From positions 1-36,733 of the forward strand of contig RECZ01000072.1 in assembly GCA_007693765.1 (NCBI GenBank): a DNA stretch of 36,733 nucleotides. The letters are read 5' to 3'. The notes below the pieces were generated by a model that searched no databases, was not told the origin of the DNA, and worked only from the letters and a program-made list of their open reading frames with translations. This DNA is from Phycisphaerales bacterium. Lineage in GTDB: Bacteria; Planctomycetota; Phycisphaerae; Phycisphaerales; UBA1924. This document shows positions 23,040-28,919 of the stretch, one piece after another (position 1 is the first letter of the stretch; each line of letters opens with the position of its first letter). The position numbers were made by a program, and so were the translations under genes.

Positions 23040-23501
23040 TTAGGCGGGGCTGGCGGGGTTTTCGCCGCGCTCGATGGCGGCGATCTTCTCGTTGCGCCGG
23101 GCGTGGCGTCCGGCGCTGAAGGGGGTGTTGAGGCAGGTCTCGATAATCGCGAACATGAGCCGCACGCCGAGGAGATCGGCGGGGAGGCAAACGACGTTGG
23201 CGTCGTTGTGCGATCTGGACATCTGCGCCGAGAGTTCGTCGTTGAGCAGCGCCGCCCGCACGCCGCGGACCTTGTTGGCGGCGATGCAGGAGCCGATCCC
23301 GGTGCCGTCCATCAGCACGCCGAACTCGGCCTCGCCGGCGGCGACGGCGGCGGCGACGAGATACGCGGCGTCGGGGTAGTCGCACGTCTCGTGCGCATCG
23401 GGGCCGAGGATGCGCACATCGTGGCCCTTGCTGCGCAGGTGGTCGGCGATGTGTTTGAGGGAGTCGAACCCACGGTGGTCGCTGCCCATGGCGATGATCA
23501 T
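23040..23501 (-). CDS. rpiB: Ribose-5-phosphate isomerase B-type sugar isomerase (RpiB/LacAB family)
   Basis: A 153-residue protein co-linear with E. coli RpiB: MGSDHRGF (Asp8, His9), CDYPDAAYLVA, GVLMDGTGIGSCIAANKVRG, SRSHNDANVVCL (His98) and AGRHARRNEKI. RpiB interconverts ribose 5-phosphate and ribulose 5-phosphate. The catalytic Cys of the E. coli enzyme (CGTGVG) is Asp65 here, and the position used by Glu in the mycobacterial type is Ser71; Cys72 is next to it. So the base may differ, or the substrate may be another phosphosugar. The ATG overlaps the stop of the upstream fusion gene (ATGA), indicating translational coupling, echoing the ywlE-ywlF order of Bacillus. Confidence 0.87.
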   Translation of the reverse strand: MIIAMGSDHRGFDSLKHIADHLRSKGHDVRILGPDAHETCDYPDAAYLVAAAVAAGEAEFGVLMDGTGIGSCIAANKVRGVRAALLNDELSAQMSRSHNDANVVCLPADLLGVRLMFAIIETCLNTPFSAGRHARRNEKIAAIERGENPASPA

Positions 23502-24646
23502 GCCGTCGCGCTCCTGGCGCCCGGCGCGGCGAGTTCCTGAAGCCGAAGGCGGATCATCTCGCGCATGCGCCGGGCCGTCTCACGATAGACCTCGGAGCCC
23601 TGACCTATCGGGTCGTCGATGTCGTTCCCCTCGGGGTCGAGGAGGTGGGCCCGGGCGGCCGCGTCGGGCGCGAAGTCGAGTAGAGCGAGCCGGTGCGGCT
23701 CGGTCATGAGGTAGATGGACTCGGCCTCGTCGATCTGGGCGCGGGTGACGGGCCGCGATCGGTGGTCGGAGGGGTCGATTCCCATCTCGCGCAGCGCCTC
23801 CGCCGCCTCGGGCGTCATCGGGGCGCCCTCGCCGGCGCTGACGCCCGCGGAGCGGACGACGGTGGGCACGCCCGGCAGCCCATCGCGGTGCTCGAGCTCG
23901 TGGCGGGCGATGGCCACGGCCATGGGGCTGCGGCAGGTGTTGCCGGTGCAGACGAAGAGGATGGTCCGCGCGATGCGTTTCTCGATGAAGCGGGCGTCGA
24001 CCGCGCCCTCGCGGGCCACGCTGTAGCCGCCGGCGAGGGTGAGGCGGATCGTGGTGGAGTGCTTGCGGCGCTGCGTTGGCCCGTCGTCGAGGATGAGCGC
24101 GACGCCCTCGCGGGCTTCGGCGCGGAGGTCCTCGACGCGGGGCGCCGTCTCGCCGGCGCCGGCGAGCGCGCTGGCGCCGACCATCACCACTGGCACGCCG
24201 GCGTGTTCGAGGATCCGTTGCGTGAGGGTGTGGTCGGGAACCCGGAGCAGGGCCGTGGCGCCGTCGTCCGCGGCGCCCCGCGGCAGGTCGGTGCGCTCGT
24301 GCAGGGCGCCGAGTCGCTGGGCGTCGAGCTCGAGGAGCAGCGTGACCGGGCCGGGCGTGAGACGTTCGATGATGCGCGCGTGCACGGGGGGCGCGGGGTC
24401 GAGGGCGCGCAGGGCGTGGTCGCCGGAGGGCGCGTGCCACGCGAGGGGCGTTGCGGGGTCGAGGGCGCAGAGCGCGCGGAGCCGTTCGAGGGCGTCGGCG
24501 TCCGCGGCGTTGGCGCCGACGCCGTAGAGCGTCTCAGTGGGTAGCACTACAAGTGAACCCTCACGCAGCAGCCGAGCGGCCTCTGTGGCCGCGTGGGCAC
24601 GCGCCGCCTGGTCGAGGGCGCGCAGATCTGTACGGAGGGGGGGCAT
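23498..24646 (-). CDS. Fusion: Sua5/YrdC-like domain + YwlE-type protein-arginine phosphatase
   Basis: A 382-residue protein. Residues 15-215 follow the Sua5/YrdC/YwlC fold that makes threonylcarbamoyl-AMP: SLVVLPTETLYGVGANAADA, LTPGPVTLLLELD, HSTTIRLTLAGGYSVAREGA. However the KxR motif is replaced by CAL (ALCALDPATPL) and the SxN motif (TSANLSG) by ASALAG, so catalysis is doubtful. Residues 226-372 are a low-molecular-weight phosphatase: VCTGNTCRSPMA with Cys233 and Arg239, and Asp345 in DDPIGQ. Thr237 matches the Thr that gives Bacillus YwlE its specificity for phospho-arginine; tyrosine phosphatases usually have Ile. It overlaps rpiB by four bases. No Shine-Dalgarno; a CATACT hexamer ends six bases before the ATG. 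Confidence 0.87.
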   Translation of the reverse strand: MPPLRTDLRALDQAARAHAATEAARLLREGSLVVLPTETLYGVGANAADADALERLRALCALDPATPLAWHAPSGDHALRALDPAPPVHARIIERLTPGPVTLLLELDAQRLGALHERTDLPRGAADDGATALLRVPDHTLTQRILEHAGVPVVMVGASALAGAGETAPRVEDLRAEAREGVALILDDGPTQRRKHSTTIRLTLAGGYSVAREGAVDARFIEKRIARTILFVCTGNTCRSPMAVAIARHELEHRDGLPGVPTVVRSAGVSAGEGAPMTPEAAEALREMGIDPSDHRSRPVTRAQIDEAESIYLMTEPHRLALLDFAPDAAARAHLLDPEGNDIDDPIGQGSEVYRETARRMREMIRLRLQELAAPGARSATA

Positions 24647-25701: not shown

Positions 25702-27393
25702 CTACGCCAGCAGCGTGCGCCCCGTCATCTCCGGGGGGGGCTTGAGGCCCAGCATGTCGAGCATGGTGGGGGCGATGTCGGCGAGGCGTCCGCTCTCGCG
25801 CAGGGTGCGCCCCTTGAACGGATCGCCCACGATCGTGAGGGGCACGTCGAACGTGGTGTGGGCGGTGTGGGGGGCGTTGGTTTGGGGATCGAACATCTGC
25901 TCGGCGTTGCCGTGGTCGGCGGTGACGACGGCGCAGCCGCCCCGCGCGAGCGCGGCTTCGAGGATGGCGCCGACGCACGCGTCCACGCACTCGCAGGCTT
26001 TGACGGCCGCGTCGAGGCTGCCGGTGTGGCCGACCATGTCGCCGTTGGCGAAGTTGACGACGATCAGCGGCTCGCAGTCGTCGGCGCGCAGGCGCTCCAG
26101 CACCGCGTCGCGCACGCCGTGGGCGCTCATTTCGGGCTGCTGGTCGTAGGTGGAGACGCGCGGCGACTGGATGATCGCGCGACGTTCACCGGGGAAGGGC
26201 TCGTCGCGGTAGTCGTTGAAGAAGAACGTGACGTGGGGGAACTTCTCCGTCTCGGCGCAGCGGAACTGCGACAGGCCCAGCGCGGCGAGGTATTCCCCGA
26301 GCGTGTTGCGCATCTTCGGCGCCTTGGGGAACGCGACGCGCATCAGGGGCAGCAGGTCCTGGGCGTAGGCGGTCATGCCCACGACGCGGATGTTCAGGCG
26401 CTCGCCCCGGTCGAAGCCCCGCGCGCCGGTGTCGGGCGAGGGGACGACGGCCGCGGCGCCGTGGAACTCGGGGTAGAGGAAGGCACGGAGGATCTCGCGC
26501 GGCCGGTCGCCCCGGTAGTTGAAGAAGATCACGCTGTCGCCGTCCCGGATGCGGGTTTGCAGGGCGTTTTCGCGCGAGTCGCCGATCATGGTGGGCACGA
26601 CGAACTCGTCGCCTTTGCGCGAGGGTTCGGTGGGGGCGTCGTAGTAGGTGCGCAGCGCGTCGAGGGCGGTGGGGGCGAGTCGGGGCTCGGCGGACCGCTC
26701 GCCGCGCCCGGTGAGGCAGGCGTAGGCGAGGGCGACGCGCTCCCAGCGGTTGTCGCGGTCCATGGCGTAGTAGCGCCCCATGACGGATGCGACCTCGCCG
26801 ACGCCGATCTGCGCGGCGCGGGCCTCGATGGCGCGCACGAAGCCCTCGCCGGTGAAGGGGCCGGTGTCGCGCCCGTCGGTGAAGAGATGCAGATAGACGC
26901 GCTTCTGGCTCATGCGCTTGCAGAGTTGGAGCGTGGCGTAGAGGTGATCGAGCAGGCCGTGGACGCCGGCGTCCGACGCGATGCCCATGACGTGGACAGC
27001 CCCGCCCCCACCCCCAGAAGTTCCGCCCCCGGAGGCCTTGTCGCTTCTGCCTCCGCCCCCGGAGTGAGCCTTCGCGTGTTCGATCGCCTCGCGCAGCGCG
27101 GCGTTGTCGAAGAACGAGCCGTCGCGGATCGCCTTGGTGATGCGCACGGACTCCTGATCGACGATGCGCCCCGCCCCGATGTTCTGGTGCCCGACCTCGC
27201 TGTTGCCCATCGTGCCCTCGGGCAGGCCGACGTCCTCGCCGCTGGTGCGGATGAGCACGGTGGGCCACTCACGCTCGAGCCGATCGGCGACGGGCGTGCG
27301 CGCGATCTTCACGGCATTGAAGGCGTCGTGCTCCGGGTGGGGGTTGCGGCCCCAGCCGTCGCGGATGATGAGGATGACAGGTGAGTTATTCAC
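25702..27393 (-). CDS. gpmI: 2,3-bisphosphoglycerate-independent phosphoglycerate mutase
   Basis: A 563-residue alkaline-phosphatase-superfamily enzyme: VILIIRDGWGRNPHPEHDA (metal Asp12), GTMGNSEVGHQNIGAGRI with the phospho-Ser65, LFTDGRDTGP, GRYYAMDRDNRWERV, IFFNYRGDRPREI, VVNFANGDMVGHTG, VVTADHGNAEQM and PHTAHTTFDVPL. It interconverts 3- and 2-phosphoglycerate in glycolysis with two Mn ions. The start is GTG at 27393; no Shine-Dalgarno is obvious. Residues 111-131 (SGGGGRSDKASGGGTSGGGG) form a Gly/Ser-rich insertion between two conserved blocks; at DNA level it resembles the C-rich repeat at 7591-7616. The orphan gene of the AT-rich island ends 18 bp upstream on the same strand. Confidence 0.95.
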   Translation of the reverse strand: MNNSPVILIIRDGWGRNPHPEHDAFNAVKIARTPVADRLEREWPTVLIRTSGEDVGLPEGTMGNSEVGHQNIGAGRIVDQESVRITKAIRDGSFFDNAALREAIEHAKAHSGGGGRSDKASGGGTSGGGGGAVHVMGIASDAGVHGLLDHLYATLQLCKRMSQKRVYLHLFTDGRDTGPFTGEGFVRAIEARAAQIGVGEVASVMGRYYAMDRDNRWERVALAYACLTGRGERSAEPRLAPTALDALRTYYDAPTEPSRKGDEFVVPTMIGDSRENALQTRIRDGDSVIFFNYRGDRPREILRAFLYPEFHGAAAVVPSPDTGARGFDRGERLNIRVVGMTAYAQDLLPLMRVAFPKAPKMRNTLGEYLAALGLSQFRCAETEKFPHVTFFFNDYRDEPFPGERRAIIQSPRVSTYDQQPEMSAHGVRDAVLERLRADDCEPLIVVNFANGDMVGHTGSLDAAVKACECVDACVGAILEAALARGGCAVVTADHGNAEQMFDPQTNAPHTAHTTFDVPLTIVGDPFKGRTLRESGRLADIAPTMLDMLGLKPPPEMTGRTLLA

Positions 27394-28245: not shown

Positions 28246-28728
28246 TCAGGAGATCGCCGCGAGGAGTTCGTCGTTCTTCACGGCGTCCTTGAGTTCGCGG
28301 GCGTTGACCCATTTCACCACGCCGTCGGGGCCGATGACCACGGTGCCGCGGGCGGCGCAGTTGAGCGGGGGGAAGTAGAAGCCGTAGGCCTTGCAGACCT
28401 CGCGGTGCATGTCGGCGAGGAGGGTGGTCTTGAGGCCCAGGGTGTCGGCCCACGCCTTGTGGGCGAAGAAGGAGTCGCAGGAGATCCCCACGACGGTGGC
28501 GCCCTTCTGCTCGAACTTGGCGATGTCGCCGGTGAAGCACTGCATCTCGGTGGTGCAGACAGGCGAGAAGTCGAAGGGGTAGAACGTGAGGACGACGTCG
28601 CCGCCCTTGCTCAGCAGGTCTTTGGTGAGGTTGATCTCGTTCTTGTCCTGATCGGTGAGGGTGAAGTCGGGGGCGCGTTCACCGACCTTGATGGGGGTGT
28701 CGCGCGGCGTGAGGTCGGAGTTGGGCAC
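28246..28728 (-). CDS. Peroxiredoxin (AhpC/TSA family, Bcp/AhpE-like)
   Basis: GTG start at 28728, preceded by GAGGA eight bases upstream, gives a 160-residue protein, the usual length; a longer in-frame extension lacks such a site. Landmarks: VGERAPDFTLTDQDKNEINL, VVLTFYPFDFSPVCTTEMQC with the peroxidatic Cys58, Thr55-like neighbourhood (PVCTTE), GISCDSFFAHKAWADTLGL and RGTVVIGPDGVVKW. It reduces hydrogen peroxide and organic peroxides using a thiol donor. Cys64 and Cys84 are candidates for the resolving Cys. It is divergent from the YggS-family gene with 191 bp between. No upstream regulator is nearby. Confidence 0.92.
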   Translation of the reverse strand: MPNSDLTPRDTPIKVGERAPDFTLTDQDKNEINLTKDLLSKGGDVVLTFYPFDFSPVCTTEMQCFTGDIAKFEQKGATVVGISCDSFFAHKAWADTLGLKTTLLADMHREVCKAYGFYFPPLNCAARGTVVIGPDGVVKWVNARELKDAVKNDELLAAIS

Positions 28729-28919
28729 GGGGCGGTCCTCGTGGGGGTGGGGTACGGGGTGCGTGAGCGCGGGCGCGGCTGCGCCCGCCTTGAATCGGGT
28801 ACGATAGCGGTTGGACGCGAGCGGATGCGCGGCGATGTGCGCCACGCGGTAGGATGTGGCGTCGGGCACGAGGCTCGGCGCCGGGTCGGAGACCCGGATC
28901 ACCGAAGCGAGGAGTGCGC

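Follow-up and report, generated by a model that had tools for sequence, protein, structure and literature searches.

The window, a stretch of 36,733 nucleotides from contig RECZ01000072.1 of a Phycisphaerales bacterium, encodes on its minus strand a protein in which a TsaC/Sua5-fold domain is joined to a low-molecular-weight phosphatase of the YwlE type. The locus raises the question of whether the N-terminal domain, which lacks the ATP-binding residues of TsaC/Sua5, still works as a threonylcarbamoyl-AMP (TC-AMP) synthase or has become a non-catalytic part of the phosphatase. The features of the locus are as follows.

23498..24646, minus: coding sequence of the TsaC/Sua5-fold and YwlE-type phosphatase fusion, 382 aa; ATG at 24646, stop at 23498-23500
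24005..24571, minus: TsaC/Sua5-fold domain (PF01300), residues 26-214, read as a putative pseudoenzyme (Pfam; fold Z 25.6 to 6f89)
24461..24469, minus: CAL, residues 60-62, at the KxR site of TsaC/Sua5, lost (alignment)
24170..24178, minus: GAS, residues 157-159, at the SxN site of TsaC/Sua5, lost (alignment)
23555..23962, minus: LMWPc domain (PF01451) of the YwlE type, residues 229-364 (Pfam, fold match)
23930..23950, minus: P-loop C233-T-G-N-T237-C-R239, its Thr237 occupying the position associated with a preference for phospho-arginine (sequence; rule from the available text of PMC8001253; 110/110 fusions)
23609..23614, minus: D345-P346, general-acid loop of the phosphatase (sequence; alignment)
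23040..23501, minus: RpiB (ribose-5-phosphate isomerase B), downstream of the fusion and overlapping it by ATGA

Architecture of the fusion and its known relatives

The fusion of a Sua5/YrdC-fold domain with a YwlE-like phosphatase, as proposed in the original prediction, was borne out by the Pfam matches (PF01300, 99 bits for the whole protein; PF01451, 85 bits) and by the fold matches of both parts. The two-domain model was confident (mean pLDDT 94.4, pTM 0.89) and was assessed by its confidence, its secondary structure and the alignments, the structure alignment comprising 58 entries (the window protein and 57 of the 74 references listed). Residues 2-226 matched Sua5 of P. abyssi (6f89) with a Z of 25.6 and 2.3 Å over 209 residues, and the C-terminal part from residue 226 matched YwlE entries at Z 22.4-25.4. 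Foldseek also matched the full length of the protein to Sua5, at rmsd 13-17 Å; these matches were rejected as proof that the phosphatase occupies the place of the SUA5 domain.

The window protein has the fold and the T37, S197 and R212 positions in common with TsaC/Sua5 (P. abyssi 6f87/6f89, T. maritima TsaC2 9dsq), but it lacks KxR/SxN and its C-terminal partner is a phosphatase instead of the SUA5 domain. With YwlE (4kk3, 4etn, 4pic, 1zgg) it shares the fold, the Asp-Pro loop and the C-x4-CR-S loop, whose fifth residue is Thr, whereas YwlE stands alone, at about 150 aa, and the phosphatase of the window bears an N-terminal domain of 225 residues. YciO (1k7j), a stand-alone protein of the TsaC fold, matched the N-terminal domain at Z 23.8; in the available text of PMC3223725 it is described as a TsaC-fold paralogue unable to replace TsaC. 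Membership of YciO was rejected by sequence, since the window protein scored 33.5 bits against 1k7j and 47.8-56.8 bits against stand-alone TsaC/Sua5 chains (1jcu 56.8, 9d3h 55.3).

Within the family of the window, the protein was matched in 157 of the 163 genomes, and among the 150 match rows listed 120 started at query residue 100 or before and therefore spanned both domains; the fusion is thus no chance arrangement. Of 77 related loci, 62 have RpiB after the fusion; four of the other 15 have fewer than 700 bases of sequence remaining. In B. subtilis, sua5 (ywlC), ywlE and rpiB (ywlF) stand in the order found here, so that a fusion within the operon would be the natural origin of the protein. 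The PDB entry 4egs is named "Ribose 5-phosphate isomerase RpiB" and yet is a low-molecular-weight phosphatase by its sequence and entry title; it may belong to a fusion of YwlE with RpiB, which would carry the joining of genes in this order one step further. Two ordinary neighbours in the window were identified by eye from their translations, a phosphoglycerate mutase of the GpmI type (25702..27393, minus) and a peroxiredoxin (28246..28902, minus).

Loss of the ATP-binding tetrad

According to the available text of PMC10321239, P. abyssi Sua5 binds ATP by K56/R58 together with S143/N145 and threonine by T33/S181/R195, and yeast Sua5 is stated to need every one of the KxR/SxN residues. When phmmer aligned the window protein with P. 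abyssi Sua5 (6f87), C60/L62 lay under K56/R58 and G157-A158-S159 under S143-A-N145, and a second alignment agreed at both sites, confirming the predicted loss of the two signatures; the threonine-binding positions T37, S197 and R212 were all retained. The stretch ASALAG had been placed at the SxN site about one residue out of register. The absence of SxN holds all the same, because the stretch contains no Asn and SxN is restored by no register. Against the synthase model TIGR00057 the window protein scored 103.1 bits, below the cut-off of 123.2, and three other damaged fusions scored 60.4-92.2; the cut-off was passed by the stand-alone TsaC of the window genome (190.9) and by four intact fusions (142.9-173.2). 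The domain thus has the YrdC-like fold of TsaC/Sua5 and is without the tetrad and a TIGR00057 score above the cut-off.

Residue counts were made for groups of fusions, with L048, L205, L208, L209, L212, L060, L103, L104, L117 and L206 and the rows retaining three of the four tetrad residues (L070, L071, L116) set aside. Among the 30 family members counted, the tetrad was kept rarely (K60 in 2, R62 in 4, S157 in 5, N159 in 0), and the counts on the threonine side were 28 for T37, 29 for S197 and 11 for R212. The active-site residue H71 and also P98, R135 and G206 were present in all 30, while H71 was found in only 32 of the 45 intact fusions. A different pattern was seen in 22 damaged fusions from elsewhere in Planctomycetota, with T37 in 19, S197 in 5, R212 in 19 and H71 in 0. 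The positions of CAL and ASALAG, whose conservation had been suggested as a check, varied freely in the family and formed no new conserved motif. The nucleotide-sensing role once proposed for the domain is unlikely, since the residues lost are those that bind ATP; of the three residues that bind threonine, two persist in almost every family member.

A stand-alone TsaC and an arginine kinase in the same genome

PF01300 had two matches in the window genome, the fusion and a stand-alone TsaC on contig C76 (204 bits), which carries KGR and SAN. The canonical Sua5/TsaC expected elsewhere in the genome was therefore found, and TsaD is present on contig C75. Given the tetrad loss and this canonical enzyme, the best reading of the sequences is that the Sua5-like half would no longer be a TC-AMP synthase, as the original prediction held.

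The search for McsB was also successful. The gene on contig C154 encodes the NEEDH motif and scored 398.3 bits against NF002194 (protein arginine kinase; cut-off 385), and directly upstream of it lies an McsA-like gene with a UVR motif, scoring 128 bits against the McsA model, below its cut-off of 210. A kinase of the McsB type was found in 59 of the 61 genomes searched, that of the window included, and arginine phosphorylation is likely to occur in this planctomycete order, as judged from gene content. The two genomes in which no McsB was found, G005 (L209) and G030 (L212), both have a fusion with a heavily eroded N-terminal domain; G015 and G019 have eroded members too, but McsB is present there, and G005 is only 87% complete.

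In the phosphatase half, the claimed catalytic residues Cys233, Arg239 and Asp345 and the neighboring Thr237 were all confirmed and were present in 110 of the 110 aligned fusions. The loop reads C(X)4CR(S/T) as in YwlE (C233, R239, S240), with the catalytic Asp at D345 and Thr at the fifth loop position (T237). At this position Thr favors phospho-arginine and Ile phosphotyrosine, according to the available text of PMC8001253. Because of T237 and the McsB of the genome, the best assignment of the window phosphatase is a probable protein arginine phosphatase. A search of viral contigs gave one phosphatase-only relative (L041, an IMG/VR contig, 2001-2393), 37% identical to residues 221-363; the contig is classed as viral and may be a host stretch.

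Tetrad state and second TsaC across genomes

The scan of named genomes covered the best 80 loci, a sample that leans to the relatives of the window; these loci were nearly all from Planctomycetota, the exceptions among the fusions including two from Omnitrophota and one from Aerophobetes. The comparison comprised 110 fusions, mostly planctomycete, counted without L112, L115 and L119 (no full fusion) and without L046, L049 and L053 (the same proteins as L014, L022 and L030). The tetrad was complete in 45 of them and damaged in 65, three of the latter still having three of the four residues. Where the tetrad is damaged, 61 of the 65 genomes yielded a separate TsaC, versus 2 of the 45 where it is intact. 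For this survey all other PF01300 matches of each genome were collected, the candidates were read and doubtful ones were checked against NCBIfam. Sixty of the 61 second copies were read and carry both KxR and SxN; the remaining copy, from the L045 genome, is a fragment at a contig edge with SAN only. Extra PF01300 matches in genomes with intact fusions were suspected to be second TsaCs, and those read proved to be HypF (by model or motif) and one NodU-like protein; a 34-residue fragment in G107 is presumably HypF-like by its motif. Further matches in such genomes were weak (G084, 36.5 bits) or below the cut-off (G097, G128).

The damaged fusions with no second copy found were L080 and L121, whose tetrad is fully lost, and L070 and L116, which retain three of the four residues. 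A repeat search of the two genomes with a fully lost tetrad and no second copy, G094 and G132, by means of the TsaC of the window genome gave only the fusion. An assembly gap is likely, because their nearest relatives on the tree have a second copy. L078 and L122 combine an intact tetrad with a second intact TsaC in the genome and are candidates for the stage before the loss of the active site.

Fisher's test of tetrad state against second TsaC gave 2e-23 with kinship ignored. On the tree, at least 8 changes of tetrad state are needed, and a tree-aware sign test on only 5 well-supported independent pairs was not significant (median p 0.5), the second copy going in the same direction in 2.3 and in the opposite direction in 0.0 of these pairs on average. 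In a quick, unrooted tree of TsaC domains, 62 stand-alone copies formed one clade (SH-aLRT 99) apart from the 105 fused domains, so the second TsaC belongs to a different lineage and is no recent copy of the fused domain. The 30 members of the window family also formed one clade, all damaged (SH-aLRT 98), for which a single loss of the tetrad at or before the base of the family is the simplest reading.

The original prediction had missed the many intact fusions outside the family, most of them in genomes that yielded no other TsaC. These intact fusions (such as L023, L025 and L118) have the identical domain order and mostly the RpiB neighbor too; unlike the window protein they keep KxR and SxN, and no other TsaC was found in 43 of their 45 genomes. 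With 45 intact tetrads, mostly in the sole TsaC found, many fusions are probably bifunctional, acting as TsaC and phosphatase. The best reading of the comparison is that the fused domain would have been retired where another TsaC exists. The different residues kept in the other damaged lineage argue against one new ligand shared by both lineages.

Selection on the damaged domain

In ten close pairs, dN/dS was 0.06-0.29 for the damaged domain and 0.05-0.17 for the phosphatase. These pairs are those of the 18 computed with dS below 1 in both domains, eight with dS of 1 or more being left out; they come from five genera plus the pair L020/L048, and pairs within a genus are not independent. The eight distant pairs gave 0.35-0.58 for the damaged domain versus 0.22-0.45 for the phosphatase, poorly measured at dS above 1, and an earlier set of 14 pairs, mostly with higher dS, showed the same trend. 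The window protein has no close relative here, and its comparison with the nearest match (0.44; phosphatase 0.31) is saturated with dS above 1. An intact domain can likewise give a high ratio, as in that earlier set the TsaC domain of the intact pair L023/L025 had dN 0.24 and dS 0.53. The low ratios in the close pairs suggest that the damaged domain is under purifying selection, somewhat relaxed, and is kept by selection, not carried as junk.

Over longer distances, the divergence of the damaged domain relative to the phosphatase was 1.42 in the window family and 1.53 in the other damaged lineage. For intact fusions the ratio was 0.91 and 1.06, and for the four eroded ones (L205, L208, L209 and L212, treated as a group of their own) it was 2.07. 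Among 20 further loci read, four had a strongly eroded N-terminal domain and at least 6 of the same family were stand-alone phosphatases, so the domain is dispensable in some lines, while others maintain it.

Alternative explanations for the damaged domain

The faster divergence of the damaged domain, the eroded remnants in four family members, its absence from at least 6 others and the higher, poorly measured ratios of the distant pairs would all suit a decaying leftover without function, carried only because frameshifts would destroy the phosphatase. The low ratios of the ten close pairs and the four residues invariant in all 30 family members speak against such a leftover, the selection test weakening it, and we consider it quite unlikely. 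Continued TC-AMP synthase activity, or a new adenylate-forming activity whose catalytic residues have moved elsewhere in the domain, could explain the retained fold (Z 25.6) and the conservation of T37, H71 and S197; moreover, the related YrdC-fold protein YciO gives traces of TC-AMP in vitro, as the available text of PMC12506659 has it. That the domain remains catalytic is nevertheless highly improbable, with no conserved replacement residues at the KxR or SxN sites, a canonical TsaC elsewhere in the genome, and the requirement for all these residues in yeast Sua5 (PMC10321239, in its available text).

Retention of T37, S197 and H71 alongside loss of the ATP residues would also fit a domain that senses threonine or a similar amino acid and tunes arginine dephosphorylation. 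This idea seems unlikely to us, as only 11 of the 30 retain R212, the third residue of the threonine site, the other damaged lineage shows a different pattern, and the conserved residues may be structural. Its more specific form, in which the dead TsaC domain, as a sensor of threonine or a small amino-acid-like ligand, would set arginine phosphatase activity and so link protein quality control to supply in the t6A pathway, we regard as a doubtful conjecture.

The explanation that we favor, and hold to be probable as a whole, combines descent from a bifunctional fusion, loss of the tetrad and selection on the domain as a pseudoenzyme part of the phosphatase. The ancestor would have been a bifunctional fusion of TsaC (threonylcarbamoyl-AMP synthase) and a YwlE-type arginine phosphatase, a form apparently still widespread in Planctomycetota. 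In the family of the window, the separate stand-alone TsaC would make the t6A precursor, and the fused domain would have lost the four residues that bind ATP, a single loss at the family's base being the simplest course. What is left is presumably a pseudoenzyme, a non-catalytic part of the phosphatase kept by purifying selection. The dead domain would most likely serve as a scaffold or act allosterically, and may still bind a small ligand on its old threonine side, while the predicted task of the phosphatase half is to dephosphorylate arginines that McsB has phosphorylated.

Significance

In the literature search no paper was found in which Sua5 and YwlE appear together, and no paper on the fusion came up, as judged by titles and the starts of abstracts, when Sua5/YrdC was combined with phosphatase and Planctomycetes, or McsB with Planctomycetes. 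The fusion is probably present as a domain architecture in public databases. The terms threonylcarbamoyl and arginine phosphatase co-occur in one paper, apparently a B. subtilis RNA-seq study. A large survey of TsaC/Sua5 filtered its matches for the tetrad, as described in the available text of PMC10321239, so damaged fusions would have been passed over.

These fusions provide a natural experiment on the passage from enzyme to pseudoenzyme, as the active site of the same fusion is mostly kept in genomes that yielded no other TsaC and mostly absent where a second TsaC exists. Our results suggest that the damaged fusions should not be named TC-AMP synthase, and that in many Planctomycetota the t6A precursor comes from an enzyme fused to a phosphatase.
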